Positions 13,050-37,390 of a DNA stretch of 42,863 bases are shown piece by piece. Position 1 is the first letter of the stretch; every line of letters starts with the position of its first letter. The stretch is from Candidatus Peregrinibacteria bacterium (lineage in GTDB: Bacteria; Patescibacteriota; Gracilibacteria; UM-FILTER-43-11): positions 1 through 42,863 of the forward strand of contig JAFGTE010000011.1 in assembly GCA_016934215.1 (NCBI GenBank). The letters run 5' to 3'. Both the position numbers and the translations under genes were made by a program. Under the pieces are notes generated by a model. That model worked only from the letters and a program-made list of their open reading frames with translations, did no database searches and was not told the origin of the DNA.

Positions 13050-13122
13050 AAAAATATCTTTCCCACAAAAAGGATTTCTGAAATAATTTATCTGGATAAG
13101 CAAAAAACAAACAAAATTGCCC

Positions 13123-18444: not shown

Positions 18445-18587
18445 GTTTATTTTTGTTTTTACCAGGGAAATTTTAGCATATATATCCTCTGATTTAAAAC
18501 CCATAATTAACGAACGATGAGCTTTTTTTGGTTTAATTAAAGGGCGCCATGTTTTCCACGTAAAGCCATTAAAATGTTTGGTCTTCA

Positions 18588-18649
18588 GAGGTGTCAAAAG
18601 CGCCCTAACGACACGCGACCCATAAGGGGAGGTGTCAAAGCTCCCTAAC
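18588..18649. repeat. Direct repeat, two copies of about 21 bases, period 41
   Basis: GAGGTGTCAAAAGCGCCCTAAC at 18588-18609 and a near copy, one base shorter with one change, at 18629-18649. The gap between them contains no gene. Each copy holds TTGACA on the minus strand, so they might include -35 boxes; no convincing second -10 is seen. Confidence 0.55.
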
Positions 18650-20807: not shown

Positions 20808-20882
20808 TGGTGGCCCCGACAGGAATTGAACCTGTATCTAAGCCTTAGGAGTGCCTTGTTCTATCCGTTGAACTACGGGGCC
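20808..20882 (-). tRNA. tRNA-Arg (anticodon CCT)
   Basis: Acceptor GGCCCCG/CGGGGCC, D-arm GTTC/GAAC, anticodon loop CTCCTAA with anticodon CCT, T-arm ACAGG/CCTGT, discriminator A and encoded CCA. The innermost anticodon-stem pair is an A-G mismatch. It reads AGG and complements the AGA reader at the window start. Confidence 0.94.
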
Positions 20883-20903: not shown

Positions 20904-21542
20904 CTAACTCACGTTCAAAACAACCAATTTACTGTTATCTTCCGGCAGTTCCGAGCGCTTCACTATGTAACTTTTCAGTGATTCCTCGGCTTTAGCGCCC
21001 ATAGCAGAGAGAAAGGTATCAAGCTCCTCTAAATGAAGTTTACTGCCCGGCGTGTCATAACACATCGGAATAATCACGCGAGGTTCAATCTGTTCAATGA
21101 CTTCCTTAGCCTTTTTAGGCTCCAGGCACCCCTTCCCGCCAACAGGAATAAAGAGAATATCGACTTCACCCACCTGTTCCAACTGTTCAGGAGTCAGTTT
21201 GGTTCCCTGAGCACCCAAATGACACAAATGAATATTGCCCCAATGGATCACTGCAATATTGTTTTCCAATTGTTCTTTATCTTCTTTCTGATTATGGAAA
21301 GAATGAATCATTTTAAAATGAATGGCATTCGTTTCATACTCCCCGGGCCAACTGAATACTTTCGGACCTCCTTCAATGGCATCCACATTATTATAAGGGG
21401 GTGCATTGTGACTCACTGTAACTGCTTCAGCCAGTAATTTAGGCAATTTGAGCCCAATTTCTTCCTGAAAGGGGTCAGTGATTACTGTCGTGCCATTTTC
21501 AGAAATTGAAAAACAGGTGTGTCCGTAAAATTTAATTTCCAT
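20904..21542 (-). CDS. Metallo-beta-lactamase-fold protein with lost metal ligands
   Basis: A 212-residue protein of the UPF0173/Lactamase_B_3 type (MEIKFYGHTCFSI at the start, DPFQEEIGLKLP, FSWPGEYE, LTPEQLEQVGEVDILFIPVGG). Relatives are zinc hydrolases with H-x-H-x-D-H, CHLGD and IPMHY motifs. Here the first motif reads VSHNAPPYNN, keeping only the first His. CHLGD has become CHLGA, and IPMHY has become IPMCY. Most metal ligands are therefore missing and the protein is probably not a hydrolase; a binding or regulatory role is inferred. Fold and length are otherwise intact and the frame is undisturbed, so it is under selection rather than decaying. It lies downstream of the surface-protein operon. 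Confidence 0.8.
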   Translation of the reverse strand: MEIKFYGHTCFSISENGTTVITDPFQEEIGLKLPKLLAEAVTVSHNAPPYNNVDAIEGGPKVFSWPGEYETNAIHFKMIHSFHNQKEDKEQLENNIAVIHWGNIHLCHLGAQGTKLTPEQLEQVGEVDILFIPVGGKGCLEPKKAKEVIEQIEPRVIIPMCYDTPGSKLHLEELDTFLSAMGAKAEESLKSYIVKRSELPEDNSKLVVLNVS

Positions 21543-21608: not shown

Positions 21609-22757
21609 TTAAGCTTTACGAAGTGCGCGGCTTGCCCCCCAAACCAGTACACCAAGGGAAGCTAAGGCAAAAGCAAAGAGAATTGTTTCAGCAGGACCGG
21701 TTCCAGGCTGTCCTTGGACTCCGGCAAGAACCGGATTGTAAGCCTGCTGACTATACTGAACGGGCTGATAAGTGACCATATTCGCCTGATAACTGACAGG
21801 CTGTGTCATCGCCGCTCTGTTTTGAGACAGAATATCGTAAGGATTAACCGTTACGGTATGAGTGTTATACCGATAGACACCTGACGAACCGGCGGTTCCC
21901 ACACCAGCGCCCATGGCGCCTGTTCCAACACCTGCCCCGATCTGAGCGGTCGTTTCAGCCCCCTGAGGTAAAAAAGCGGCATCAGACGTACCAATCACTG
22001 AGCTATGAAGTCCTGTTGCCTGATCCTGAAGCATTTGCATCAGATCCTGAATAAGCTGCTCATTCTGTACTTCTTTTTCCTTCATATCGTTGAGCTGTTT
22101 GCTGAGTGATTGTAAAAGATCAGTATCTGTCACAGCGCCCTCAGCAACCACTTCTGTAACTCCTTCGATAGGTTCCACCACACCCGTTTCAGCATCGATC
22201 AAAACAGGCTCGGCATCACCTGCTTCTTCTGAAACTTCAACATCACTGCCAACAACTGTTCCAACGCCATTGGAAATACTTTCTTCGCCCGCTCCATGCA
22301 TAGCGCCTTCTTCTGATGTTTCAATAGCTTCCACTGTCTCATCCTCCACTCCTGTTTCACTGCCATCCACCTCCGAAATCGGTTCAATCTGAATGCTGAC
22401 CGCCTCGGACTCAGCTTCCACTACCGTTTCATCTTCCGGTATCACTGTTTCACTTTCCTCACCTGCCTCCTCCTCTTCGTCACCAAAAAGAGCACTGCCT
22501 CCTGCCTGTTCCTGGTAATCGGGAATCACTTGAAAACTTCCATCAAAAAGATCGCCTTTTAAAAGGGAAACAAACTGTTGCGGAGCTAACAGCAGAGAGA
22601 TAAAAGTAAGCAATATCACAAAGCCGACACTCCAAAAAATCTTATTTTTGACTTTTTCAGCCGGTACCCTTTTAATCACCTTTACAGGAGCTTCCGAAGC
22701 AGGAATTGCTTCGTCGGGAATGGTGATCCAAACAGTGTCGTTTTTTGGGTCAGTCAT
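21609..22757 (-). CDS. Acidic membrane-anchored surface protein with PGTGP/TM/basic tail
   Basis: A 382-residue protein. A cytosolic N-terminus (about 1-35, ending in basic KRVPAEKVKNK) leads to a membrane helix (about 37-58). A very acidic Glu/Val/Thr-rich region (about 85-210) and a short coiled coil (about 210-245, SLSKQLNDMKEKEVQNEQLI) follow, then a Gly/Ala and Tyr/Gln-rich stretch (about 250-345). The C-terminus, PGTGPAETILFAFALASLGV followed by a basic RALRKA, has the layout of a sortase-type or archaeosortase-like sorting signal, though the motif is not LPxTG. It is the last gene of the surface operon, six bases after the preceding stop. A linking or stalk role is inferred. Confidence 0.65.
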   Translation of the reverse strand: MTDPKNDTVWITIPDEAIPASEAPVKVIKRVPAEKVKNKIFWSVGFVILLTFISLLLAPQQFVSLLKGDLFDGSFQVIPDYQEQAGGSALFGDEEEEAGEESETVIPEDETVVEAESEAVSIQIEPISEVDGSETGVEDETVEAIETSEEGAMHGAGEESISNGVGTVVGSDVEVSEEAGDAEPVLIDAETGVVEPIEGVTEVVAEGAVTDTDLLQSLSKQLNDMKEKEVQNEQLIQDLMQMLQDQATGLHSSVIGTSDAAFLPQGAETTAQIGAGVGTGAMGAGVGTAGSSGVYRYNTHTVTVNPYDILSQNRAAMTQPVSYQANMVTYQPVQYSQQAYNPVLAGVQGQPGTGPAETILFAFALASLGVLVWGASRALRKA

Positions 22758-22763
22758 TTTTTA

Positions 22764-23828
22764 TTAAATGGAGTTATTGAGTCGTCTTTTTCTGAAAGCC
22801 AAGGTCCCGCCTAATCCCAGAGCTGAAAAAGCCAGCCAGCCAACCAGCGGACCATTTTGAGGCTGGAATGGAATTCTGGCGAGCAAAGAAGCTGTAATTT
22901 CATCAAAGGGTGACGTTGAGGAAAGCGGTTCACTGATAATGATGGCCACCTCGTCCGAATAGTCACTCTCACGGGCCTGTGAATCATAAGCGGTCACCGC
23001 AAAGTAATAGACTTCACCATTATTGAGTCCGTCCAGACGATACTGATTGACTCTTCCAATGGTTCTCCGACGGGTATACATACCGGAAGTCTTACCGTAG
23101 TAAATGTTGTATCCAACCAGTTCCGGTTCACTGCTGTAATCCCACTTGAGATCAACATAACCCGGACCGGTATTGATTTGTAAGTTCTGAGGTCGCTGCA
23201 GATTCGCAAAACCAAATCCTGTAACCGTTACATCAGTTGGTGACAAATCAACGTCAGGACCTCCTGTATCTGCATCGGAATAGGGTTGAGCTCCGACATT
23301 CAGATTGATGATCAGTGCTTCAGGTTCTCCGGAAAGGATATTCATAGGAAACGCGTCTTCCACAATATTTACGCTGGTATGACCGAGCTCAGAAATCTGA
23401 TAATCGTATGCTTCAATCACTGTAGCGATCGCGTAAGGTGTAATCACTTTGAAGCGAACGGTAGCGACTTTTGCTTCAGCTTGAGCATAACCACCGGAAA
23501 TATTGGAACGGCCCAGTTTCACAAGTCCCTGATCTTTACTGACTTCCGTTTCACCGGGGGCCGAAAGAGTGAATGGTGAATCTTCCGTATTGATACTGAT
23601 GGCCTCTATTACTTTTTCGTTGTAATCAAGCCAGGAACGAACCGAAACAACATTCTGCAGTCCTGGATTTTTCAGGGTTACCTGCACGTCAAACTCGTCA
23701 CCAACTCTGGCTTCAGTCGTCACAGAAGTGATTTCCAGATTCGCATCCGTCTGCTGAGCCCAGGTCATAGCAAGACCCGTAGCGAGCGAAATGACCAGAC
23801 CGGCGATGAGAAATAAAGTTTTTTTCAT
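22764..23828 (-). CDS. Cohesin-like plus FN3 surface protein with C-terminal anchor
   Basis: A 354-residue exported protein. Signal peptide (about 1-25, ending TWAQQ). Residues about 28-170 have the strand pattern of a cohesin domain: ARVGDEFDVQVTLKNPGLQN, YNEKVIEAISI, VATVRFKVI and IEAYDYQISELGHTSVNI. An FN3 domain follows at about 210-305 (RPQNLQINTGPGYVDLKWDY, VGYNIYYGKTSGMY, GEVYYFAVTAYD). The end, VGWLAFSALGLGGTLAFRKR, is a membrane helix with basic tail, so the protein stands on the cell surface. The cohesin part is paralogous to the next gene upstream. Cohesins bind dockerins, and dockerin-like tails occur in the two giant proteins of the same operon. It starts two bases after the preceding stop. 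Confidence 0.8.
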   Translation of the reverse strand: MKKTLFLIAGLVISLATGLAMTWAQQTDANLEITSVTTEARVGDEFDVQVTLKNPGLQNVVSVRSWLDYNEKVIEAISINTEDSPFTLSAPGETEVSKDQGLVKLGRSNISGGYAQAEAKVATVRFKVITPYAIATVIEAYDYQISELGHTSVNIVEDAFPMNILSGEPEALIINLNVGAQPYSDADTGGPDVDLSPTDVTVTGFGFANLQRPQNLQINTGPGYVDLKWDYSSEPELVGYNIYYGKTSGMYTRRRTIGRVNQYRLDGLNNGEVYYFAVTAYDSQARESDYSDEVAIIISEPLSSTSPFDEITASLLARIPFQPQNGPLVGWLAFSALGLGGTLAFRKRRLNNSI

Positions 23829-23830
23829 TC

Positions 23831-24400
23831 TTATTGACTAACAATAGGAAGTGGAGACTGAGGTTTAAGTAGGACATTCAGCGGCATGCCGTCTTTCATG
23901 ATATTGGCGGATGTATGACCGGTCAGATCCTGCTGATAGTCGTAAGCCTCAATCATTGCAGCCCCTTCGCCCACTCTCTCGAATTTAATACCGGCCACTA
24001 CAATTTTATCCGTCCGGACTGCTTTTGAAGTAGAACGGCCCAGCATCACCAAACCGGTTTCCTGATCAAAATCATTATTGTAAGGAGCCTCAAGTTCAAA
24101 ATCAGAAACTCCGGTATCAATGGAAATCCCCTTCAAAACGGCTGGATTGTAAGTGAGCCATGCCTGCACAGAAGTAATGGGTTTATTTTCAGGGTTATCG
24201 AGGACGACCTGCACAACCGCATGATCCGCATCGTCTTCTTTGGCTACCAGATAAAGATTGACCGTTTTTTTCATTTCCTGAGCTTCCTCAAGACGTTTAA
24301 TGCCAACCTCGGATGGTTCCGCACTACAGCCGGCCAGAAGATTAGAAGCGGCAAGCACAAGTGCGGCAGCAATGATGATTTTCAGTGAACTTTTTCTCAT
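23831..24400 (-). CDS. Cohesin-like domain lipoprotein
   Basis: A 189-residue lipoprotein with signal peptide and lipobox LLAGC (Cys at about residue 25). From about residue 45 it has a single cohesin-like domain: HAVVQVVLDNPENKPITSVQ, AWLTYNPAVLKGISI, VMLGRSTSKAV and IEAYDYQQDLTGHTSANIMK. It shares the AYDYQ...GHTS.NI...PMN/PLN ending with the cohesin protein that follows it in the operon, so the two arose by duplication. A lipid-anchored cohesin could hold a dockerin-bearing protein at the membrane. It begins 18 bases after the giant gene's stop codon. Assignment of the fold is by pattern; binding is inferred. Confidence 0.78.
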   Translation of the reverse strand: MRKSSLKIIIAAALVLAASNLLAGCSAEPSEVGIKRLEEAQEMKKTVNLYLVAKEDDADHAVVQVVLDNPENKPITSVQAWLTYNPAVLKGISIDTGVSDFELEAPYNNDFDQETGLVMLGRSTSKAVRTDKIVVAGIKFERVGEGAAMIEAYDYQQDLTGHTSANIMKDGMPLNVLLKPQSPLPIVSQ

Positions 24401-24418
24401 AAATTGAATAACAATTGA

Positions 24419-27400
24419 TTACTGAATAGCTCCGCCTGCCGGCTCTGAAGTAATAGGAACGGTGGCGTCAGGTTCTTTTTCAAGGGGCTGACCGGCCTGC
24501 TCGGCAGCGGCCGCAGCCTGAGCAGCGGCAAGGGCGGAAGCACTTTCAAGATTCTGTCCTGTGCCAAAATAAATGGTTCCGTAAACGGAAGAGAAAATCG
24601 TAAAGTCAGAAAAATCGACACGACCGTCATTATTGAGGTCTGCCAGATTAGCGGCGGCTGCATGTCGGGCAACCGATAAATTGTATCCCTTAAAGCCTTT
24701 GTTGAGTGCAACCGGCAGTTTCGTTCCGTCATACGACTCCAGACCTTCGATATTGATTCGGTATTTTTTATCAGCGATCTGAGGACCGGTTTTAATGCGT
24801 AGGACATTACCGGAACCCCCCAGTGACACACCGTAAACGGCCAGCTTCTGAGTGGAATCCTCACTGTCGTAAATGGAAATTCCATACTGGGAACTGGCAT
24901 CGGTCTGACTCAAACCGGTTCGGACCGAAGACGGTTTTAAGCTGTCTCTGAATTCCAGTTCTACCTCATTAAAATTAGTCGCCTGGATGTATTCGAGAAT
25001 CGGCGCCTTACGACTTGCCTGGAAGCCGCTAAAATTCAGGCGGTTGGCAGCCCCCTCAATCACGCCGCGGCCTACAATATCTTTGATATCTTTAGAAACA
25101 GTAAGCGTGTAACGCTTTCCGGGCACCTGATTCGAAGTGGACAGGGTGACAACCGTACCGGCAGGATTGATCGAGGCACCCACGACATAGAGTTCTTCGT
25201 TGACGTTACTCTGACTCGAAATCGTAAAGCCTCTTCCTGAAGAATGAACCGAATTGGCTGATATTTCTTTATTAAACAATATCTCAAGGGTGGTTTCACT
25301 GGTCGGAATCGCAGCCAGCGCCCGTGGCGGTTCCTGCTGATCGGTAATGGAATCCCCCGTTCCGACGTAAACCGGAATATAACCCCGAGTCGTCTTACCG
25401 CCGTTATCCGTTACGATCACTTCGATTTGATAAGGATTAGGGCTGGGTGACGTCAAAGTATTAACTGTTACATTCGGCAGGATATACCATTGCCCGTTAG
25501 CCCCTTCGCTGACACTCGGATTCATGCACACAAGAATGTTGGAACCGGTCGGGCATCCGCCGTTAGAGACTTCAGTGCCTTCACTTCCTAAAGTGCCGCC
25601 ATTCTGAGGTCCGACCTGCCCGATTTCACTGAGGTTCGCGACAACCGATTTAATATCTCCGTCGTCATCCTGAACAAAAACATACAGCGTCACGGGTGTT
25701 TTACCATCGTTGATCGCCACACGAGGTGTGGTGTAAGCCCGATCATCCACAACCCGGGGAGGATCACCCAGTGTATCTTTATGAGTGACCTCTACTTTTA
25801 ATATTAAATTGGCAATACCCCCACTTTTATCGGTGGCCCGAATTTCAATGTTATGAATACCCAGCGGCGCCGTTTTTGGAATTGTCAGACCTCCCGCCTG
25901 ATACCAGGCGCTCTCTCCTTCGGTTGATGCTTCAGCATCCATTTTAAGCGCAACCGGATCAATTCCGATCGTGCTAAAAGTAGCGGTAACACTTTGAATA
26001 TCAGATATACCGTCAGAATCTGAAACAAAAGCATTGATCGAAAAAGAGGTGGCACCATCACGCGGGATGGACTTACGCGGACTGATGTAACTCACATCAG
26101 CATCAATCTGAGGACCCGTTGAGGCTGTTGAAACTTCAAGAGTTAAAGTACTTGTTGTTCGCTCACCGGTAATATCGGAAGCAACGACATTGATATTATA
26201 AGTACCCAAAGCAGTGGTATCCGGAACGGTAAACTCTTCTGATTCAAAGAATTGCGTTTCAAGTTCCCCTCCTTCAGTCACTTCACCGATTGGCTCAAGA
26301 ATCTTGAAGCCAATGCCGAGAGAGCCGAGATCGGCAACAACAGAATCGATGGTGTCCGCACCATCCTGATCCGTGATCTGAGCGGAAATTCTGATTGGAG
26401 TCTCATCATCCGGCGGCACGCTGAGAGGGCTGATATATACGTGATCAATCACCGGAGCCACACTTTGCTGTACATCTTTGCTGACACGAACAGCAACAGT
26501 TCCGTAAAATTTATCACTTCCCCTTCGTACTTCTACAGGAAGCAGATAAGGATCGTCTTTGGTTTCCACCGTAGGCGGAACCGTGGTTTCATAGGTATAC
26601 CACTGACTGAACTGCGGCTGAGTGCCTGTGTCTTTCGTCATTTCAACGGTTGAAGGTCCGCCGATCTGACTGAGGTTAATAACAACGCTTGAAACGTTAT
26701 TGAGATCAACAGGATCTTCCACCAAGGCCCATAATTTTGCTACTGTGACACCATCATTCGGCACAGTATAAGGAATCGATTTAGATTGATCGGAATGAAC
26801 GACAAGCCCCTGCTCCGGTAAGGTTACCAGAAGCGCATTTGTGAAAATCAGAGAATGATTCGCACTATCGATCAAAGTGATATTATAAAGTCCGGAAGTA
26901 AATCCAGCCGGAACAACAATGGTCAGTGATGTGGGTGACTGGCTGGAGACCTGAACCACTTCAGTGCCGACCCGAACCTGGTTAATCACATCGAGATGTG
27001 TTCCGGAAATGATCACGTTTGTGTCAGTATCATTTGATACAGTGCTTGGCGTCACCAGACTGATCGAAGCAGTAGGTAACTTGAAACCAAAGAAGTTATT
27101 GACTTTGTGATTGCCTATATGAAGACCATTGACGTCTTCGACACCACGGAAAACCACGAAGTAATTCATGTCAGTATCCTGAATGGCTGTTTTGAGTTCA
27201 TAGGAATCTTCATCGATCCGGGTAATACCTGTTACCACCAAATCTGTTCGGTTAGCAGGATTGGAAGGAGTGTTAAACCAGAAAATATCAAGGTTTACCG
27301 GAGTGAAACTAGCCAGATCAATATCATCACTGAAATTCATCCGAAGAGTCCTGGCATCAACTACTTCAATTGAACTTAAAGTGACCGGACTGACGGAATA

Positions 27401-29530
27401 CTGTGTATTATAACCGGTAAAATAAACAGATTTCTTCAGTAAATAATCTCCGCCGTAAGAATAAATATCACCCGGAGTCGAAACAGTTACTTTATACACA
27501 CTGGCCGTATTGAAAGGTCCGGCCGTCGTAAGAACAATGCTCTGATAACCGGGATCAATAGTGGCGGCACTTACCGCGATCGGAACACCTGCGGCAGTCG
27601 TCACTGAAAAATCAGTGAAGTCGACATCCCGTTCATCGATATTGTTATTAAAGTAAACCCGAACATCCGTAGCAGAAATCGCTTCAGCATAAGCCACATT
27701 AAGCGCCCGGCTGACCGCAAAGTCTTTGGCGGCAACAATACTGCCGCTGCCATTATCGATGCGTACAATATAATGTCTGTCGGGATTGAGCTCGTCAACC
27801 ATCACCACCTCCAGATTTTCTCCTGACATACCCACGGACTGAACTGCCTGAGAAGCCAGAGGAGAGGTACCGCTGTCATAAAGAACGGTAACTTCCCCCG
27901 GATCCACCGTACTGAAGTCTAAAGTTCCTTTTGGAATAATGAAAACATCTTTTCTGGTGACATCCACAGTACCGACGGAATTGACCGAATTATTGTGACC
28001 GTAACCCCAGAAAGAAATTGATTTGTAAGTATCATCCACCGGAACCCCCTGAGCGTTAGTGAGCCAACCCGGCGCACTGACTGCAAAAGTAAAGTTGGCG
28101 TTAGGATTATTAAAAACTACATTTTCCAAAGTCAGAGTGGCCCCTGAAATAGATTGTTTATAGGTAAGTAGCTGACTGTCATCAATGAGTGTACCGCCAT
28201 TTCCTGCCACCGTTGTGTAAAGCCTTCCTATAGGGTTATTAGCCACACCTCCCAATTGAATATTTTCATCAAAAGTTAGCTGAGCACGATACGTTCCGCC
28301 GACATTAGTAACCGTCACAGCAATCAGTCGCGGACCATTCTTGGTACCGGCAAAAGTGATACGATCCATCCCCATACTGGCCCCGTCAGAATCACGCAGG
28401 ACAGCGCTTGGACTGGTTGTTGTCAGAGTATAGGTATCGTCTTTCAGAAGATTCGTACCGGTAACGGAAAGAATGATCGTGTTACCGGTCACTGAAACGA
28501 CATTACTGATCGTAATAGCACCGGCGTTCAGAATGAAATCGTTCTTGGTAACAGAAGCCGCTTCCACATCATCGGAGAAGACAACGGCAATAGAATTATA
28601 ACCGCTGACACTGGCGCCGATAATTCCGAAATCGGAAATCGTGGCACTGGTCTGTCCGTAACCGTAAAAGAGCACATTAGAATAAACAGCGTCTACCTTC
28701 CCCTGTTGGTTGGAAAGAATATTAGAAACCGCGGGAGCCATGGTAATCGCATATTCGGTACCGGCCGTCTGAGTGGCCGTGGTGAGCACGGTATACTTTT
28801 GACTGAAACCGTAATTTGGTCCAGGTTCCACATTGGAAACAGCAAGACCGCCGGTAATCACATAATCAGCCGGATTACCCACATTTTCCAGATAGTCCGA
28901 GAATTCAACAGCTACATGAGTAGCATTAATGGTTTCGGCATTAAGCGCTCTGAGTTCATTCTGTCCCTGCACAGTGATCGTGCTGTTTGGTATCGCATTC
29001 GTTGCCACAGGATTGGCTCCGTCAAGAATGGCTAAATCACTGACGGAGAGATTGATGATTTGCCCCACGGGCAGGTCATCATTTAGCTGAGTATTGAGTT
29101 TAAAAAGAATGTCACCGGCTCCCAGCGTAACATCGTCAGAAATAATCGTCACAATCAGTTTGCCTTCCTCCGGAGAAGCTGTCATCTGGAAAGCCGCACT
29201 CTGAAATTCAGTCGTCGCATCAAAAATAATCGGATTGTTCTCGAAAATCAAAGCATTAACCGGATTATAGTTAAGTGAGAAGGTAATGCTGTCAAAAGAA
29301 GGCATCGCAGCAAATGCTTTAATTTCCAGAAGTCCTGACTCGCCAACGCCCCCTACATAATTAGGTATGTAAAGCTCGGAAGCGCTGGACGGAATCGTAT
29401 CAATCGTCAAATCCGCCATATTCAGACTGGGATTGGTATGCACCAAATAGGTTGTGATCAGAGTCATCAGAGCAATTCCGATTCCCATCAGATACTTATT
29501 CCATCGATTTTTTGGAGTTGGATATTCCAT
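24419..29530 (-). CDS. Giant surface protein with cohesin-like N-terminus, Ig-like repeats and dockerin-like end
   Basis: A 1703-residue exported protein. An N-terminal membrane helix (about 13-32) anchors or exports it. Residues about 48-185 look like a cohesin domain. From about 190 to 860 there are repeated Ig-like units of the SbsA/Big type (motifs such as VAVEFSDYLEN, IAVVFSDDVEA, AQLTFDENI, VRVYFNNNID, LRMNFSDDID, ending near YGYG or FTGY). An IPT/TIG-like unit (SLVTPSTVSNDTDTNVIISG) and several cadherin-like blocks with a DGVTV or DGATS turn follow to about 1400, then two more SbsA-like units. Near residue 1625 is one dockerin F-hand, DLNNDGRVDFSDFTIF, then an Ala/Gln-rich tail. Most likely a long fibre or stalk. 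Confidence 0.8.
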   Translation of the reverse strand: MEYPTPKNRWNKYLMGIGIALMTLITTYLVHTNPSLNMADLTIDTIPSSASELYIPNYVGGVGESGLLEIKAFAAMPSFDSITFSLNYNPVNALIFENNPIIFDATTEFQSAAFQMTASPEEGKLIVTIISDDVTLGAGDILFKLNTQLNDDLPVGQIINLSVSDLAILDGANPVATNAIPNSTITVQGQNELRALNAETINATHVAVEFSDYLENVGNPADYVITGGLAVSNVEPGPNYGFSQKYTVLTTATQTAGTEYAITMAPAVSNILSNQQGKVDAVYSNVLFYGYGQTSATISDFGIIGASVSGYNSIAVVFSDDVEAASVTKNDFILNAGAITISNVVSVTGNTIILSVTGTNLLKDDTYTLTTTSPSAVLRDSDGASMGMDRITFAGTKNGPRLIAVTVTNVGGTYRAQLTFDENIQLGGVANNPIGRLYTTVAGNGGTLIDDSQLLTYKQSISGATLTLENVVFNNPNANFTFAVSAPGWLTNAQGVPVDDTYKSISFWGYGHNNSVNSVGTVDVTRKDVFIIPKGTLDFSTVDPGEVTVLYDSGTSPLASQAVQSVGMSGENLEVVMVDELNPDRHYIVRIDNGSGSIVAAKDFAVSRALNVAYAEAISATDVRVYFNNNIDERDVDFTDFSVTTAAGVPIAVSAATIDPGYQSIVLTTAGPFNTASVYKVTVSTPGDIYSYGGDYLLKKSVYFTGYNTQYSVSPVTLSSIEVVDARTLRMNFSDDIDLASFTPVNLDIFWFNTPSNPANRTDLVVTGITRIDEDSYELKTAIQDTDMNYFVVFRGVEDVNGLHIGNHKVNNFFGFKLPTASISLVTPSTVSNDTDTNVIISGTHLDVINQVRVGTEVVQVSSQSPTSLTIVVPAGFTSGLYNITLIDSANHSLIFTNALLVTLPEQGLVVHSDQSKSIPYTVPNDGVTVAKLWALVEDPVDLNNVSSVVINLSQIGGPSTVEMTKDTGTQPQFSQWYTYETTVPPTVETKDDPYLLPVEVRRGSDKFYGTVAVRVSKDVQQSVAPVIDHVYISPLSVPPDDETPIRISAQITDQDGADTIDSVVADLGSLGIGFKILEPIGEVTEGGELETQFFESEEFTVPDTTALGTYNINVVASDITGERTTSTLTLEVSTASTGPQIDADVSYISPRKSIPRDGATSFSINAFVSDSDGISDIQSVTATFSTIGIDPVALKMDAEASTEGESAWYQAGGLTIPKTAPLGIHNIEIRATDKSGGIANLILKVEVTHKDTLGDPPRVVDDRAYTTPRVAINDGKTPVTLYVFVQDDDGDIKSVVANLSEIGQVGPQNGGTLGSEGTEVSNGGCPTGSNILVCMNPSVSEGANGQWYILPNVTVNTLTSPSPNPYQIEVIVTDNGGKTTRGYIPVYVGTGDSITDQQEPPRALAAIPTSETTLEILFNKEISANSVHSSGRGFTISSQSNVNEELYVVGASINPAGTVVTLSTSNQVPGKRYTLTVSKDIKDIVGRGVIEGAANRLNFSGFQASRKAPILEYIQATNFNEVELEFRDSLKPSSVRTGLSQTDASSQYGISIYDSEDSTQKLAVYGVSLGGSGNVLRIKTGPQIADKKYRINIEGLESYDGTKLPVALNKGFKGYNLSVARHAAAANLADLNNDGRVDFSDFTIFSSVYGTIYFGTGQNLESASALAAAQAAAAAEQAGQPLEKEPDATVPITSEPAGGAIQ

Positions 29531-29554
29531 TTTTGATATTTATTTTTGCCCCCT

Positions 29555-32500
29555 TTATTGTTTGTTAGTTACCTTATTAAATAAAAGGATGACATCAACG
29601 AGCGTCACACCGCCTGCACCGTCCACATTGGCAGCTTTGAGCTGTTCTGGTGTAGGACTTTTGTTAATACCCGCCGCAATCTGGAATGCCAGAATCACAT
29701 CAACCATATTGACTACGCTGTCTCCATTTACGTCACCCCCGGCAATCACGCCAATGCGAATGGGGTAAACATAATTGAGGGTATGGTTGGCTGTATCGGT
29801 TATTGTAAGAATCAGCTTGTAAACACCATCAAACATATTGGCGTCCGCCGGAATTTCGATCGGTATATCATAGGTTTTATACTGAAGAACAACAGGAGCA
29901 GGAGTAGTTTCAGTTGTCCCTTCTGTGGTAGTTGTATCGGTGACCCCCTGATCGACGACTTGTGTTTCATTTAAGAAAGGTGTAGCCGTAAACCAGATCG
30001 CACCCGAATCTTCATTGATCTGCTGATAAGTATTAAAACTGGAATAAACCAGTGATGTGTTGATTGATTGAATATCTGCAATGGTATTCACGTCAGAAAT
30101 TTTTGTCTGCAGATTGATTCTTGACCCTTTGGTCACGGCAATGGAACCAATCCGGCGTACGTAATCAATGACCGGTCCGGAGTCAACGGTAATCGTTAAG
30201 TAGTTACTCTGAACCACTGAACCATCAGCATTTTCATATTCAGCCACCACCGTTGAGGTACCGGTCATTTCACCCATCCGGATCAGCCCTGCATCAAGTG
30301 AAGCCTGCTCTAAGTAATTGACTGGTGTATTGACCCACTTAAACTGGGTGGGGGTGAGAACTCTGGTAGCCCCGTTATCGTACTGAGCAACCACCATGAG
30401 CCCGTAAGTAGCACTGGTCGGAAGTGGAATCGCATTATTATAGGTAGGAAGAATAGAGACATTCTTTTCAAGCGCGGTCGTGCTGATATCGATGATTTCG
30501 TTCTCATCAATATCTTCGATCGTATCATTATCATGATCGGTCGACTGATTGTTAGGCTGCAGAATAAGCATGCCCGGATAACCATCAATCGTGGTGACAT
30601 TGATCAAATCAAGTGTTGACGTTGGATTAGTAAGGGCATCGATATCTGTTTCCAGTTGATCAACGATGGCCTCCACTTTTGAAATCTCATTATTATAGGT
30701 ACCCGCGGGAAGCGTGATGCTCACCGACTGACCTTCCACAAAGAACGTCTGACCGGCTGCTTCAGGATCATGAATGGCCACAATCACGCTCTTATGCGCA
30801 TTCTTAACCGTAGTGGCAGGCAGCAAATCCTGAGTACCCTCATCAAAAGTGACACGCAAACCGGAAATCTTGTTAACGGTAACCTGCAAAGGAAGTGATT
30901 CGATCGTACCGATCTCCGCTTCACCCGTATCGTATCTGGCCGTGATGTTGGTTACACCCGGCTTCAGAGCGGTCAGCAGACCAGTACTATCAATAGTTGC
31001 TACATTCTGGTTGCTCGAGAAGTATTCGATACCACTGGCAGCTGTAATATTTTCATATTCTTCAAGTTCAGCATTCGCGCCGCCCACATAAGCATTGATC
31101 TGGACAGTGTCAGCAACATCCAGTACGTCGCCCGGATCGCGTCCGACCATTTGCAGACGGACTTGCTTTTTAATAACTTCTATTTCAAAGGAAGCGATAC
31201 ACCCCTGTTTATCCAGAGCGGATAAAATAGACGTACCGGAGCGTTTGGCATAAAGAAGACTGACGTGAGAGATGTCATCGATTTCTTTCTTTACTGTAGT
31301 CGTGAAGGTACCCGGCACATCGGTCAGAACCCCTTCTATTACAACACCATTAAGGGCAATGAGTTTTGAAGTAAAATAACCCACCGTCAGTTTGGTGCCG
31401 GTAGCTGCAAATGGAGGTAGGGTAGCAGAAGCGGTAACAGATGCCTGGATCTGACCGGTAACCGTTCCTGAATAAGCGCCTGAAACAGAACCGGTAACAA
31501 TTCCGCTCACTGTTCCGGATAAACTGTATCCGGCACCCCCCAAAGTGCTGAAAGTCGAAGTGCCTTCCAGAAAACCATTGAGGGTTGAGCCCTTAACAGT
31601 AACTGGAATAACTTCATCATCAATCGTTACATTAACGGTGTAATCCTGAGTGGAAATATCGTAAGATACAGGAATAGAAACGCTTGTCTGACAGGTTTCA
31701 GATTCAAAGACAGGAGGATCCCCTTCATATTCCTCTTCACAGCTGTCAATACTGTAAGCACCATTAGGAATAGTAACCGTTTCAGCGAATGTCAGATTTG
31801 TATCCAAAAAATCAGCCACACCCGTTCCCTGCTCATCGGCCTCAGAAAGAGTGACAACTTCAAGAATCGAAGGATGAGAGGTAATCCATTCGATTTCCCC
31901 GACACTATTGGAGGCGAAAACAATCGCCGTTTCCCCCTGCAGTATTTCATTATCAAGTTTTAAAGGCGTGGTGAGTACGCCAGCCGCCTCATTGGTGCCA
32001 TCAGCACCGCCGGAAAAACAAGGAGGTCCGATCTGAGTGCCATCGACGATACAAACGTAAGATCCGCCCGTTCCGTCATGAGGATGGTCACCCATTTCAG
32101 TGGCCTGAAGAGCTATAACAGCAGGATCTGAACCAAGCGGATACGCAATAAAAGGTGTATCGGTACCCAGCAAATCATTAAATACATAAGCAAAATTGAG
32201 AGCGGTCAGAATTTCATTCCCGGTTCCCTCATCACGGACTTTGATCTCGTAAATACCACTTCCGTTATTGGCGTAAATCATGGCTCTTGAATCGATTCCA
32301 TTGATCGGATCCGTGCTGATATCAGGAACGAAATCAACATGGATCTGGAAAGTCTTGGCCCCCGGCATGTCACTATCAGCCGTCGGGTAGTTGATGTCGA
32401 TAGAATCGATGCCCGGACCAAAATCAAATCCCTTGAAACTGCCGCCGTCATCGGTCACCGCAAAGGAACCAAGATCAGAGGGGGTAATATTTTCAAAACC

Positions 32501-32986
32501 TTCTCCGTATCCGCGGAGGATCGACGTTTTTAGCTGGGCACAGGAAACCGGCTCAATGATAAGGTCTACTGTATTTTTAGGAAGACCGAGCGGTGTGTAA
32601 ATTGCCACCGAACAGGACGAACTAAAAGAAGAAGGCAAAATGATCTTATTCCCGCTATAAACCGTACCCGCGGGGCAAGGAATGGTGCCATCGCCAAAAT
32701 AAATGAAAGAATTCTCCAGGTCACTTCCGCTGACATTACCGCTTGTGTTATCCGTAAATTCTATATGAACAGACTGAATCGTTACCACTCCGTTAACAGG
32801 ATATGCGGCGCCCTTGGGCGTCACAAAATCAATCCAAGATACGTCAGTAACAAGTCTCCCGTCCATAATACTGGCGGAAAGACTTTCCGCGTCATATTTG
32901 GTAAGCTGATAGGCAACCGTCACAATACCGAAGGCAAAAACGACGGCGAGAAAGGAATTGACTATTTTTGTAATGAAATCTTTCAT
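29555..32986 (-). CDS. Large surface protein with Big2-like domains and C-terminal dockerin
   Basis: A 1143-residue exported protein. A membrane helix at about residues 8-28 acts as signal or anchor. The middle is beta-rich, with a Gly/Ser/Thr-rich run near 480-540 (GTVSGIVTGSVSGAYSGTV) and Big2-type Ig domains (IASFEIEVIKKQVRLQMVGR, GLLTALKPGVTNITARYDTG, EIGTIESLPLQVTV). Cysteines cluster in the first half. The C-terminus is a type I-like dockerin: DVNGDSVVNMVDVILAFQIA has complete calcium ligands, and the second repeat NVDGAGGVTLVDVILLFNKV lacks some. It lies between the YidC-like gene and the 1703-residue gene with gaps of about 24 bases. Cohesin partners downstream in the operon are the natural ligands. 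Confidence 0.82.
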   Translation of the reverse strand: MKDFITKIVNSFLAVVFAFGIVTVAYQLTKYDAESLSASIMDGRLVTDVSWIDFVTPKGAAYPVNGVVTIQSVHIEFTDNTSGNVSGSDLENSFIYFGDGTIPCPAGTVYSGNKIILPSSFSSSCSVAIYTPLGLPKNTVDLIIEPVSCAQLKTSILRGYGEGFENITPSDLGSFAVTDDGGSFKGFDFGPGIDSIDINYPTADSDMPGAKTFQIHVDFVPDISTDPINGIDSRAMIYANNGSGIYEIKVRDEGTGNEILTALNFAYVFNDLLGTDTPFIAYPLGSDPAVIALQATEMGDHPHDGTGGSYVCIVDGTQIGPPCFSGGADGTNEAAGVLTTPLKLDNEILQGETAIVFASNSVGEIEWITSHPSILEVVTLSEADEQGTGVADFLDTNLTFAETVTIPNGAYSIDSCEEEYEGDPPVFESETCQTSVSIPVSYDISTQDYTVNVTIDDEVIPVTVKGSTLNGFLEGTSTFSTLGGAGYSLSGTVSGIVTGSVSGAYSGTVTGQIQASVTASATLPPFAATGTKLTVGYFTSKLIALNGVVIEGVLTDVPGTFTTTVKKEIDDISHVSLLYAKRSGTSILSALDKQGCIASFEIEVIKKQVRLQMVGRDPGDVLDVADTVQINAYVGGANAELEEYENITAASGIEYFSSNQNVATIDSTGLLTALKPGVTNITARYDTGEAEIGTIESLPLQVTVNKISGLRVTFDEGTQDLLPATTVKNAHKSVIVAIHDPEAAGQTFFVEGQSVSITLPAGTYNNEISKVEAIVDQLETDIDALTNPTSTLDLINVTTIDGYPGMLILQPNNQSTDHDNDTIEDIDENEIIDISTTALEKNVSILPTYNNAIPLPTSATYGLMVVAQYDNGATRVLTPTQFKWVNTPVNYLEQASLDAGLIRMGEMTGTSTVVAEYENADGSVVQSNYLTITVDSGPVIDYVRRIGSIAVTKGSRINLQTKISDVNTIADIQSINTSLVYSSFNTYQQINEDSGAIWFTATPFLNETQVVDQGVTDTTTTEGTTETTPAPVVLQYKTYDIPIEIPADANMFDGVYKLILTITDTANHTLNYVYPIRIGVIAGGDVNGDSVVNMVDVILAFQIAAGINKSPTPEQLKAANVDGAGGVTLVDVILLFNKVTNKQ

Positions 32987-33009
32987 TGTTTGGTTGTTTG
33001 TTTTTTCGC

Positions 33010-34017
33010 TTAACTAATCAGCAGAGCATTGGCTATCAAAACGATAATCAGGGTCATAGAAGCTGCTTCTTCCAGAAAATGAAAATTAAAATGCCTGATG
33101 ATCGGAAGGTGGTGAAATTTTCTTGACCAATGTTCTATCTTGTTTTTGTGAAGTTTTGAAGTGCGCAGCATTTTGATGAGCTCACTCTGAACATATCTGC
33201 ACCATTCCTGTGAATTGTTTTCCACAATGATGTAGCGCATCGTCGCAAAGGTGATTTGAGTCAGAAAATAGACCGTGAGCAGCACGGCTAATGTGGAAGC
33301 AAAGTAATAAACCATACAGGTAAGAATGAGGGTAAATACCACCGCCGTACTAACCTGTCTGGCATCGATGTAGTCCTCTCTTTGTTTGAGGTGAATTTTT
33401 GTAAGAGAATGCAGCAGAAAAGCTAAACTGGCCAGTAAAGGAAGGAACGCTCCGACAGGTGCAGAAAGCAGGGCAAAATTAAAACTGCTGAAAGCACCGT
33501 TCAGAAACAAAGGTGCCTGAGAAAGAAGATACAAACCGATAACAACAATCAGAAATACAATCAACTGTGAACTGAAAAGAATGGCGCCCCGTCTGTGAAT
33601 TCGCTCGTTGACAGAGTAAAGCACATCCAGTTCGCGCTTGCTGTCACTCATGGTAAGTTCACCGCGATGAAAGCGGTCGACCAGCTTTTTGTGAAACAAA
33701 TGGATTTTCTTTTGCTTGAGCTGAAGATTAACAGCAGGATAAAGCGTCATGAGTTCAACGATCAAAGCAAGCACGATAATCGCTGCAATGAGACTGCCTC
33801 CAAAAATCTGGACAAAGCCATTGAGAATCACAGAGAAAACATGAAGAAAATTACTCCAGAAAAAAGAAAGATTTTCAAGGCCCGCCGCAGGCACTGCCGC
33901 TAAATGGCCTCCTGCCGGACCGTTCACGTCCACGTAATTAACCCCCTGCATAAAGGCCACGTAAAGGCTGATTGCAAAGAGGAGAACAGTTGTAAGTATG
34001 ACTCCGATTCGTTTCAC
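33010..34017 (-). CDS. Divergent YidC/Oxa1-like membrane insertase (candidate)
   Basis: A 335-residue membrane protein heading the surface operon. An N-terminal helix (about 5-24) and an outer loop lead to FFWSNFLHVFSVILNGFVQI and a helix ending LMTLYPAVNLQLKQKK. A charged cytosolic hairpin (about 100-135, KKLVDRFHRGELTMSDSKRELDVLY) and then three or four helices follow. This order (helix, basic coiled hairpin, LY..N....R, helix pair) is that of YidC/Oxa1/EMC3 insertases. Sequence conservation is weak and the C-terminal third (cytosolic about 245-305, then a last helix) is unusual. If correct, it may insert or fold the surface proteins encoded behind it. It could also be an unrelated membrane protein. 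Confidence 0.5.
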   Translation of the reverse strand: MKRIGVILTTVLLFAISLYVAFMQGVNYVDVNGPAGGHLAAVPAAGLENLSFFWSNFLHVFSVILNGFVQIFGGSLIAAIIVLALIVELMTLYPAVNLQLKQKKIHLFHKKLVDRFHRGELTMSDSKRELDVLYSVNERIHRRGAILFSSQLIVFLIVVIGLYLLSQAPLFLNGAFSSFNFALLSAPVGAFLPLLASLAFLLHSLTKIHLKQREDYIDARQVSTAVVFTLILTCMVYYFASTLAVLLTVYFLTQITFATMRYIIVENNSQEWCRYVQSELIKMLRTSKLHKNKIEHWSRKFHHLPIIRHFNFHFLEEAASMTLIIVLIANALLIS

Positions 34018-34048: not shown

Positions 34049-34077
34049 ATTATACCAAATTTATGCTCGTTTCGCAA
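34049..34077 (-). promoter_or_regulatory. Promoter of the surface-protein operon
   Basis: Minus-strand TTGCGA (34077-34072), 17-base spacer, TATAAT (34054-34049), about 32 bases before the ATG at 34017. No other promoter is evident in the short gaps downstream, so it should drive six genes over 12.4 kb. Confidence 0.75.
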
Positions 34078-34405: not shown

Positions 34406-34434
34406 TTGATTTTTTGCCCTAAATAAGGTATAAT
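34406..34434 (+). promoter_or_regulatory. Promoter of the VirB6/VirB2-like cluster
   Basis: TTGATT (34406-34411), 17-base spacer, TATAAT (34429-34434), 24 bases before the ATG at 34459. Confidence 0.75.
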
Positions 34435-34458: not shown

Positions 34459-36462
34459 ATGGCAGGGAAAACGAAACAAAAATTCGCCAAAAAAATCCTG
34501 AGCATTCTCATGCTTGGTGTTTTTGTATTCTCAGGCCCCCTCGCCCTGGCACAGGACGACAACACCGAAAGCAGCGGAACTGAAAACGAAGTTCTTTTTG
34601 AACCGGTCGAAAAGCAAATCATTCAACTGACCGACGAAGGAATAGCCGAAGACTGGAACATCTCAAAATTCGAAACCTACGGACTTAAATTTCTGGTACG
34701 CGGTAAAGAAGCACTCACCTGGTCGCTCAACATTGAAGACGGAGGCTTTCACAACAAAGCGATCGAAAAAAGTTACACAAAAGTACTAACCATCGTAAAC
34801 AGCTTGTTTATTCTCGGCTTGCTCGCCATTGCCCTGATGTGGATATTTTCGATTCTGATTCCGCGAAAAACACTCAAAAAAGTGATTCTGGTTTATGGCA
34901 TGGCCGTGATCTTTATCAATTTTGCTCTGCCAATCAACCAGCTGTTCATTGACGGAACAAACTTACTGCAACAGACCCTGCTCACTGAAAAAGACGGAAC
35001 GATACAAATTACCGACATCGTGCAGACACCGGCTTACGGCGAAGTTCTCAGCTACCAGAACTACGGCGATGAAAGTCTGATCAACGGCAAACAGGGAGAT
35101 CCGATCACCCTCAAACTTTCCGGACCGGATGAAGAAACCACCTCGATCGGGAAAATCCGTGTTCCTAACGGAGAAACAGTCGACGAAGAAGTCATTTCCC
35201 TGAACAATAAAGAAATCTCCGTACTCCGGAGCACGCCTTTCAGCGTTTATCAGGAACAGGTCTTTTTCCGCTTCGGATTACTTGTCCTGACCGGCATTGC
35301 TTATTTCATCATAGCTCTGGTGTTTGTGCTACGCATCGTGATTCTGTGGGCCTTGCTGATTCTGTCCCCCCTCCTCCTGTTTCTGGCCATATTCAGAAGT
35401 ACCCGAGGCTGGTTCTTAAACTGGCTGAGTATGTACGGACGCTGGCTTCTCATTGGCCCGCTGACGGCACTCGGTATTGCGGTGATCGTGAATATCTGGC
35501 AGCTCAGTGGCCTGCCGATTTCTGTCAGTGATACCTACACTCCCGAAATCTTCGCACCGGAAAAGATTTCAAACATTGTTTTTTATCTGCCCGGCGCTGA
35601 TACGGCCAACACCCTGAGCAACACACAGGAAATGATGGAATATCTGATCTTCCTGATCATGCTTTATTTGCCTATTTTTCTGGGCTTCACATTGACCCGG
35701 CGAAAAGTCCTGCATGAAAGCCTCGTCGCTGTAACAAAGAAACTGATGACCAGCACCACAAACACCCAGCAGCAATTGATCCAACAGGTATTGGCGAGTC
35801 ACGAGCAGGAAAAAGAACAAAACGCCAGGCCGATGGGAATTATGGAAAGTATCAAACATCTGGTGAATGACAAAATCAGTATAATCACCGAAACCACCCT
35901 GCCAATTCAGAAACTGAAAGTGGAACCGGAAACGCCAAACATCATGATGCCCACCGCTTCCAACTTCCTGCCGGAAAACCTGAATAAAACCCCCATTCCC
36001 AAAATGCTGGAACTCCTGGGAAGGCAGAAGGATTCGAAAGCCAGTCATAGGGACACAATCGAAAAAATGGCCCGCGCTGAATCCATCACCGACAAAAAAG
36101 AACGGGAGAAAGTCATGGCTGTCATGAATGAGATTGAATCCCGCGCGAGTAACCAAAAAGACAGTGAAGCCATGGCCATTCTGCACGAAGTGGAAACCAT
36201 CAAAGAAGTAGATACCCGCACCGCCGAATCCGCTTCAGCCAAGACCGGAGCCGCTTCCAGCATCAGTATCAACATCAACGATGCCAAGCCGGAAGCAGAC
36301 CGTAAAGTTCGTGACTCCAGTTTTGATTCCAAAAGTGAGGAAAAAGACAAGGCCGGCAAGCAAATGGAGGACAAGAAAAAAAATGAAGGCAAAGATAAAA
36401 AAAGCGAAGAAAAACCTGATAAAGAACCTGAACACTCTAACCCTGAAGCCAATGCAAACTGA
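34459..36462 (+). CDS. VirB6/TrbL-like multi-pass membrane protein with long cytosolic tail
   Basis: A 667-residue protein. A signal peptide (about 1-32, ending LALAQ) precedes an exported loop. Membrane segments lie near 115-135, 140-160, 265-300, 300-320, 330-350 and 390-415. The blocks MWIFSILIPRKTLKKVILVY and LILSPLLLFLAIFRSTRGWF, then LNWLSMYGRWLLIGPLTALG, are typical of VirB6/TrbL-type proteins that form the inner-membrane channel of type IV secretion systems. The last 240 residues are hydrophilic, helical and then Lys/Glu-rich (KEEKDKAGKQMEDKKK), and should be cytosolic. Its stop overlaps the next gene by 11 bases. No VirB4 or VirD4 ATPase is in the window. Confidence 0.7.
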   Translation: MAGKTKQKFAKKILSILMLGVFVFSGPLALAQDDNTESSGTENEVLFEPVEKQIIQLTDEGIAEDWNISKFETYGLKFLVRGKEALTWSLNIEDGGFHNKAIEKSYTKVLTIVNSLFILGLLAIALMWIFSILIPRKTLKKVILVYGMAVIFINFALPINQLFIDGTNLLQQTLLTEKDGTIQITDIVQTPAYGEVLSYQNYGDESLINGKQGDPITLKLSGPDEETTSIGKIRVPNGETVDEEVISLNNKEISVLRSTPFSVYQEQVFFRFGLLVLTGIAYFIIALVFVLRIVILWALLILSPLLLFLAIFRSTRGWFLNWLSMYGRWLLIGPLTALGIAVIVNIWQLSGLPISVSDTYTPEIFAPEKISNIVFYLPGADTANTLSNTQEMMEYLIFLIMLYLPIFLGFTLTRRKVLHESLVAVTKKLMTSTTNTQQQLIQQVLASHEQEKEQNARPMGIMESIKHLVNDKISIITETTLPIQKLKVEPETPNIMMPTASNFLPENLNKTPIPKMLELLGRQKDSKASHRDTIEKMARAESITDKKEREKVMAVMNEIESRASNQKDSEAMAILHEVETIKEVDTRTAESASAKTGAASSISININDAKPEADRKVRDSSFDSKSEEKDKAGKQMEDKKKNEGKDKKSEEKPDKEPEHSNPEANAN

Positions 36463-36946
36463 ACTTGGACAAGTTAATAACTTCGGCGAATTCGTTTCCC
36501 TGATCTGGGCCTTCGGCTCAAAAGCGATTATTGCTTTAGCCATATTTTTCATTGTACTGGGGGCCTTTTACTACATTGCTTCAGCCGGGAATGAAGAAAA
36601 AATTGAACAGGGAAAAGAAATGGTTTATGGCAGTCTGATCGCCATCGTGATTGTGCTTCTTTCCGGTGTACTCATCAGAATTCTCCACCAACCTGCTCAG
36701 GGGGTGGAAAGCGCACTTTCAGAAATCCCGACCGTGATTGGAAATGCCACCAACATACTCATCAGTCTGATCGGCGCCTTCAGCTTCCTGATGCTGGCTT
36801 ATGCAGGTTTCCTGTATTTGATAGGCAAAGGTCAAAAAGCTCAAATTTTAAAGGCGCATCGCGCTTTTGCCTATTCGATTTATGGACTCATTCTTGGCGT
36901 GCTGGCTTACGCCATTGCCAATGCTGTTATCACTTTTCTTCTTTAA
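36452..36946 (+). CDS. Duplicated VirB2-like four-helix membrane protein
   Basis: A 164-residue protein made of two VirB2/TrbC-like hairpins in tandem. The first (about 15-75) has IALAIFFIVLGAFYYIASAG, then NEEKIEQGKEMVYGSLIAIV. The second (about 88-160) has LISLIGAFSFLMLAYAGFLY, then a basic loop KGQKAQILKAHRAFAYSIYG and a last helix. Each repeats the pilin order helix, charged cytosolic loop with ...A...G, helix. The start ATG at 36452 overlaps the stop of the preceding gene by 11 bases, which indicates translational coupling; the open frame reaches further upstream, but that part lies inside the VirB6-like gene. It may be a channel or pilus base rather than a polymerised pilin. Confidence 0.7.
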   Translation: MQTELGQVNNFGEFVSLIWAFGSKAIIALAIFFIVLGAFYYIASAGNEEKIEQGKEMVYGSLIAIVIVLLSGVLIRILHQPAQGVESALSEIPTVIGNATNILISLIGAFSFLMLAYAGFLYLIGKGQKAQILKAHRAFAYSIYGLILGVLAYAIANAVITFLL

Positions 36947-37309
36947 ATGATTCAAGAATTCCTGTCATCCATCATCGCAAAAGCGTACGCTCAGGACTTG
37001 ATTCCCTGCGCCGACGGAACGCTGGCCGACCCCACGGTCGGATGCACAGCTGTGCCAAAGGCGCTTGTGCACACTCAGTCAGACATTCTCAGTATCATCC
37101 TGAAAAGTGCCGATGCAGTGGTAACGATCGTCGCCGCTGCAGCCGTCATTGTGCTTATTTATGGTGGCATCACCTACGCCATCAGCATGGGCAACGAAGA
37201 GAAGATAGAAACCGCAAAACGCACCCTGTTTTGGAGTATTTTTGGACTTGTTTTAGCGCTACTCGCCAAATATATCGTCACGGCCGTACTGGTCATTATT
37301 ACCCAATAA
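36947..37309 (+). CDS. VirB2/TrbC-like pilin
   Basis: A 120-residue pilin-type protein. The N-terminus is an uncleaved or cleaved signal-like stretch ending AYAQ, followed by a short exported segment with two cysteines (IPCADGTLADPTVGC) that may form a disulfide. Two membrane helices follow, VVTIVAAAAVIVLIYGGITY and IFGLVLALLAKYIVTAVLVI, joined by the charged loop AISMGNEEKIETAKRTLFW, the hallmark of VirB2 pilins. The ATG follows the preceding TAA without a gap. Pilins of this type polymerise with lipid into the T4SS pilus; here a host-contact or DNA-uptake fibre is plausible. Confidence 0.8.
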   Translation: MIQEFLSSIIAKAYAQDLIPCADGTLADPTVGCTAVPKALVHTQSDILSIILKSADAVVTIVAAAAVIVLIYGGITYAISMGNEEKIETAKRTLFWSIFGLVLALLAKYIVTAVLVIITQ

Positions 37310-37345
37310 AAAAAATATCTGTCCATGTATTTTTCCTTTTCCCTC

Positions 37346-37373
37346 TTGTCCGAAACACATAAACTTGTATAAT
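37346..37373 (+). promoter_or_regulatory. Separate promoter for the MopE-pilin gene
   Basis: TTGTCC (37346-37351), 16-base spacer, TATAAT (37368-37373), 18 bases before the ATG at 37391. The fourth gene of the cluster can thus be expressed apart from the first three. Confidence 0.65.
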
Positions 37374-37390
37374 TTTTTTGAACAATAAAA

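Follow-up and report, generated by a model that had tools for sequence, protein, structure and literature searches.

Cohesin and dockerin modules that do not belong to cellulosomes are already on record (Peer et al. 2009, as cited in PMC8542988 and PMC10066038). Giant surface proteins have been described from Omnitrophota, one protein of which carries nine dockerins (PMC10066038), and from Vampirococcus (PMC8080830), and Peribacteria encode large exported proteins together with a sortase (PMC4736985). Neither cohesins nor dockerins are mentioned in PMC8080830 or PMC4736985. No operon like the one described below appeared in the mostly open-access literature that we searched on cohesins and dockerins in Patescibacteria, CPR bacteria, and Gracilibacteria. 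The means by which host-dependent Patescibacteria grip other cells are poorly understood, and although proteins of very large size at the surface have come under suspicion, no mechanism has been attached to them.

We analyzed a window of 42,863 nucleotides, which is an entire contig (C12) of a Candidatus Peregrinibacteria genome (1.01 Mb, 95.8% complete). We propose, with a probability of roughly 60%, that a six-gene operon in this window (genes A to F) makes a calcium-dependent, enzyme-free cohesin-dockerin surface scaffold. The binding between modules, the topology, the sortase processing, the substrates of the insertase, and the role of the scaffold are parts of this proposal that we infer.

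Organization of the locus and its distribution in relatives

The six genes all lie on the minus strand, from position 34017 down to 21609 (Table 1), separated in the order A to F by 23, 24, 18, 2, and 6 bases. A sequence-only reading of this DNA had described six minus-strand genes behind one promoter, and our coordinates, strand, and lengths agree with it, with gaps of 2 to 24 bases. A promoter-like site lies about 60 bases before gene A. Because the number of sites found by the promoter scan overall was no higher than in shuffled sequences, the promoter call rests on conservation: a comparable site was found upstream of A in five of five relatives (four of these sites are similarly distant from A, and one is 200 bases away). 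The next gene, 66 bases downstream of F (window 20904-21542), encodes a metallo-beta-lactamase (MBL) fold protein and is kept in that position across the family. An Rfam search of the window detected a tRNA at 20811-20882 and nothing else. The larger window open reading frames (ORFs) with no Pfam match are at 13117-15807, 7937-9061, and 17503-18597.

Table 1 Features of the operon and its surroundings (window coordinates)
Feature	Position	Strand	Evidence
Promoter-like site of operon	34049-34077	-	TTGCGA-17-TATAAT, 10/12 matches, extended -10
Gene A, 335 aa, diverged second YidC/Oxa1-type membrane insertase (predicted)	33010-34017	-	PF02096 in orthologs, hhalign, Foldseek
Codon of Glu88 in A	33754-33756	-	Position of Lys/Arg in canonical YidC groove
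Gene B, 1143 aa, with a hydrophobic segment at the N terminus, a Big_2 and Ig-like region, and a dockerin at the C terminus	29555-32986	-	Pfam, alignment, hydrophobicity scan
Dockerin of B, sole PF00404 match in genome	29570-29737	-	Pfam
Gene C, 1703 aa, with a hydrophobic segment at the N terminus, a cohesin fold, Big_5 and TIG repeats, and an F-hand at the C terminus	24419-29530	-	Pfam, alignment, AlphaFold2, Foldseek
Cohesin-fold domain of C, approximately residues 40-200	28931-29413	-	AlphaFold2 and Foldseek
Single F-hand of C, ADLNNDGRVDFSDFTIFSSVYG	24578-24643	-	Calcium-loop residues invariant, 10-sequence alignment
Gene D, 189 aa, lipoprotein, one cohesin domain	23831-24400	-	Lipobox, Pfam
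Gene E, 354 aa, cohesin, FN3, LPXTG-like C-terminal tail (PQNGP, hydrophobic stretch, RKRR)	22764-23828	-	Pfam, alignment
Cohesin domain of E	23442-23738	-	PF00963, 34 bits in one search and 31.9 bits in another, cutoff 24.1
Gene F, 382 aa, with a transmembrane segment at the N terminus, an acidic and coiled region, and an LPXTG-like tail (PGTGP followed by a transmembrane segment and a basic end)	21609-22757	-	Alignment
Divergent promoter-like site of VirB6-like/pilin operon	34406-34434	+	Promoter scan, relatives
VirB6-like gene and three T4SS_pilin-family genes, divergent, outside operon	34459-38089	+	Pfam, synteny

The nearest relatives of E were found in records of Patescibacteria group bacterium, Candidatus Peregrinibacteria, and Candidatus Gracilibacteria. 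Conservation of gene order in relatives, the check that the sequence-only reading had named beforehand, held at two levels. Across the family, genes A to F, the downstream MBL gene, and the divergent VirB6-like/pilin genes are kept wherever contigs reach; in some members, additional genes for EGF, TSP_3, or DUF4215 proteins separate A from B. The order (B)-C-D-E-F, without A, occurs in other families of the class (f2, f17, one f5 genome [G179], and f11). In-frame TGA codons are present in the f11 copies of the cluster and were noted in the gene copies of G027 and G028 (L131, L148), a pattern that would follow from TGA encoding an amino acid in those relatives. In a phylum-wide sample of 380 genomes, the four matches to E outside the class cover its FN3 part only; the many weak class-wide matches that likewise cover FN3 only were not counted as instances of the system.

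A reduced form of the cluster was detected at 11 other loci in family f5. It consists of a dockerin protein of approximately 110 to 145 amino acids with an N-terminal hydrophobic segment, a cohesin-FN3 protein, and an F-like protein, and it includes no giant protein. At 10 of the 11 loci, the cohesin-FN3 gene is immediately preceded by the small dockerin ORF, whereas none of 108 other genes in these loci, taken as controls, had this F-hand pattern upstream. Such adjacency is what a cognate dockerin-cohesin pair predicts.

The reduced form also bears on another explanation, in which the main task of the pair is to tether the envelope: a membrane-held dockerin and a wall-linked cohesin would bridge the cytoplasmic membrane and the cell wall or S-layer, with the giant stalks as elaborations of this bridge. 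The f5 loci, which keep the small dockerin, cohesin-FN3, and F-like proteins and dispense with the giant one, are in its favor, as is the resemblance of the E and F tails to sorting signals. However, most of the other families examined retain at least one giant C beside D and E, and the linkage to the wall by sortase is putative. We consider a tether of this kind unlikely.

Cohesin and dockerin modules and their putative anchors

The dockerin of B scored 23.2 bits against Dockerin_1 (PF00404; cutoff, 22.9 bits) and covered positions 2 to 56 of the 57 in the model. Its first calcium loop is canonical (DVNGDSVVNMVD), with calcium residues that are invariant in the alignment, and its second loop is degenerate (NVDGAGGVTLVD). 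Gene C ends differently. Instead of the two F-hands of a type I dockerin it has one, which is invariant within the family, so that the claim that both giant proteins end in dockerin F-hands stands for B and is reduced to half a dockerin for C. Since the C orthologs in f2 (G018) and f15 (G031) have two F-hands at the tail, the half-dockerin of C looks like a derived state. At the opposite end of the proteins, the hydrophobic segment of B was detected by a simple scan; that of C was under the scan threshold and appeared as a helix at residues 8 to 32 in an AlphaFold2 model. In alignments, B, C, and their relatives have in common a motif resembling NPQLFRAxxTE after this segment, which may be a common sorting or cleavage signal.

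Two smaller proteins had been said to carry paralogous cohesins, one lipid anchored and one with FN3 and a membrane anchor, and this was borne out. The E domain is over the Cohesin (PF00963) cutoff and is accompanied by an fn3 match of 29.7 bits. The D domain, at 22.5 bits, is slightly below the cutoff of 24.1 bits; the lipobox cysteine of D is invariant in a 14-sequence alignment. A profile-profile match between D and E had a probability of 100, and by this comparison the two are paralogous cohesins. A PDB search with the E profile returned weak cohesin matches ranked below better-scoring GTPase matches, which we took as spurious.

The cohesin-like N terminus claimed for C was upheld by a different route. 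This region had no Pfam match and no profile match to the D and E cohesins. Its AlphaFold2 model is a beta-sandwich (pLDDT of approximately 90 over residues 40 to 190), for which the best PDB matches in Foldseek were cohesins (first match, E = 1.7e-8, probability of 1.00), including the noncellulosomal cohesin of Archaeoglobus fulgidus (2xdh) and the cohesin-FN3 construct of Clostridium perfringens GH84C (2w1n). It was structure prediction that settled the cohesin call for C. The C ortholog in G018 has a subthreshold PF00963 match at the place of the cohesin fold.

These irregularities would suit a reading in which the folds are real and the modules no longer pair, the cohesin-like beta-sandwiches and lone F-hands being ordinary spacer or calcium-stiffening domains. 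Such a loss of pairing would account for the single F-hand of C, the degenerate second loop of B, and the C cohesin that no D or E profile matches, but it sits poorly with the conserved loops and the conserved adjacency of dockerin and cohesin genes, and we regard it as very improbable.

Neither a catalytic domain nor a carbohydrate-binding module was detected in the operon proteins by Pfam or NCBIfam, in agreement with the sequence-only reading that this is not a cellulosome. The genome was searched by family (PF00963, PF00404, and others), with selected stretches examined; it yielded two PF00963 matches and one PF00404 match, all within the operon, and the two PF00963 matches sit on separate proteins, not in tandem. 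The dockerin proteins scanned in relatives contained TSP_3, EGF, LRR, DUF4215, or Ig-like repeats and no enzyme domain. One ORF, open-ended and possibly an artefact, couples a dockerin with a helix-turn-helix domain. A cellulosome was rejected, as we found neither dockerin-bearing catalytic subunits nor a scaffoldin with tandem cohesins and a carbohydrate-binding module. A cellulosome-like scaffold whose enzymes are encoded elsewhere in the genome has in its favor that cohesin and dockerin modules are common to cellulosomes. It is scarcely credible given that PF00404 matches nothing but B in a genome that is 95.8% complete, that catalytic domains are absent from the dockerin proteins we examined in relatives, and that no multicohesin scaffoldin or carbohydrate-binding module was found.

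The C termini of E and F both consist of a P-x-x-G-P or P-x-T-G-like motif, a hydrophobic stretch, and basic residues. F-like proteins of other families have similar ends, and in other families the last gene of the cluster has a P-x-T-G-type tail in the same place as F. The NCBIfam LPXTG model matched E below its cutoff. The genome encodes two sortases, one of which is fused to S-layer homology (SLH) domains (L139:7567-8688, G000:C30); the second lies near a cluster of T4SS_pilin-family genes (L138:7561-12584, G000:C32). We find it a reasonable inference that a sortase would process the tails of E and F.

A YidC/Oxa1 paralog and the divergent VirB6-like/pilin genes

Taken alone, the A protein of the window had no Pfam match to PF02096. 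Its syntenic orthologs in eight genomes of the family were matched by this model near full length, one over the cutoff and seven below, and each of these genomes also encodes a canonical YidC elsewhere. In hhalign, a profile of A was colinear with canonical YidC (87.6%, compared with <0.3% for five control proteins). The top three PDB matches to the AlphaFold2 model of A in Foldseek were YidC of Bacillus halodurans, with high probability and weak E values. When the A profile was used to search PDB sequences, no match was returned. The insertase call rests on orthologs and profiles.

Gene A belongs to the YidC/Oxa1 family by PF02096 match in orthologs, profile, and topology, and it differs from known members in two respects. 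First, the basic groove residue is absent: the aligned position, which we take to be the functional residue of the hydrophilic groove of YidC, is Lys or Arg in 19 of 19 canonical YidC proteins and Glu in 8 of 8 A proteins. Second, A is confined to one family, where it adjoins the operon; it was present in 15 of the 18 family genomes, and the 270 other genomes sampled in the class all lacked it. On these alignments and models, A is a diverged, charge-altered second YidC/Oxa1 insertase and not merely a membrane protein. Such a charge-reversed paralog offers a ready-made way to gauge the importance of the charge in the groove.

The VirB6-like and pilin genes adjoin A in every relative whose contig extends there. 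The operon could be imagined as an accessory of a VirB6-like/T4SS-pilin system, with the scaffold holding or guiding a pilus-like or DNA uptake machine and A inserting the pilins. The divergent arrangement of A and the VirB6-like/pilin operon in all family contigs that span the region speaks for this reading, and promoter-like sites are conserved on both sides. It is nevertheless improbable, because the C-D-E-F clusters examined in other families lack A and the pilin genes, and because T4SS_pilin-family genes occur at many other places in the genome (21 matches).

Proposed surface scaffold and known systems

For the enzyme-free scaffold, we envisage that the giant Ig-like stalk proteins B and C would be exported and held by their N-terminal hydrophobic segments. 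Their C-terminal calcium-binding F-hands would plug into the cohesins on D, on E, and at the membrane-proximal end of C. With D as a membrane lipoprotein cohesin and E as an anchored FN3 protein with a sortase-like tail, the pieces would join on the cell surface, where F, also with a sortase-like tail, would be a probable anchor or wall partner. The charge-altered insertase A may serve the membrane anchors of the proteins of the operon. The resulting surface would probably be used for cell-cell attachment or envelope architecture, not for polymer digestion.

We favor the scaffold because of the cohesin and dockerin assignments, the confinement of the genomic matches to the operon, the retained gene order, the adjacency in f5, the invariant calcium loops, the enzyme-free dockerin proteins of relatives, the two sortases, and the YidC paralog. 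Counted against it are the degenerate second loop of B and the single F-hand of C, the imbalance of three cohesin folds to one and a half dockerins, the LPXTG match of E under the cutoff, and, for A, the missing PF02096 match and the weak YidC E values. As a whole, the interpretation given by the sequence-only reading survives in its folds, one true dockerin, lack of enzymes, and gene order, and it had omitted the insertase A and the sortase-like tails of E and F. The self-assembling stalk or attachment complex that it proposed is putative.

The role may be attachment, in keeping with what has been proposed for the giant proteins of Vampirococcus (PMC8080830) and Omnitrophota (PMC10066038), or it may lie in envelope architecture, which the minimal form in f5 favors. 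More tentatively, and with more doubt than belief on our part, the class of Patescibacteria may build a dedicated calcium-dependent, enzyme-free cohesin-dockerin fiber for attachment to host cells, with one family having recruited a charge-reversed YidC paralog as a private insertase. The operon is a candidate mechanism by which bacteria that presumably depend on hosts assemble their outer surface or cling to other cells. With plug-and-socket domains in a conserved operon, the question of binding becomes approachable on purified domains, without the uncultured organism. If the proposal is true, cohesin-dockerin assembly would gain a role that is structural alone and that comes with a conserved set of genes.

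Clostridial cellulosomes resemble this system in that they use cohesins and dockerins, have an Ig-like region preceding the dockerin, and anchor cohesins at the surface. In contrast to them, the operon has no enzymes, carbohydrate-binding module, or tandem-cohesin scaffoldin, and the stalks themselves bear the dockerin. The cohesin modules of C. perfringens (GH84C 2w1n, 2vo8, and 2jh2) occur beside FN3 on an exported protein, as in E, but they belong to glycoside hydrolases, and E has no enzyme part. Omnitrophota, Vampirococcus, and Peribacteria are likewise small bacteria, presumed to be symbionts or predators, that have adhesin-like proteins of very large size; a paired cohesin-dockerin operon is not reported in the parts of those studies that we searched. 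Noncellulosomal modules such as that of A. fulgidus, which the C cohesin matches, have the same folds outside a cellulose-degrading complex; here, a conserved multigene operon combines several cohesins with stalks that bear dockerins, with sortase-like tails, and, in one family, with an insertase of its own.
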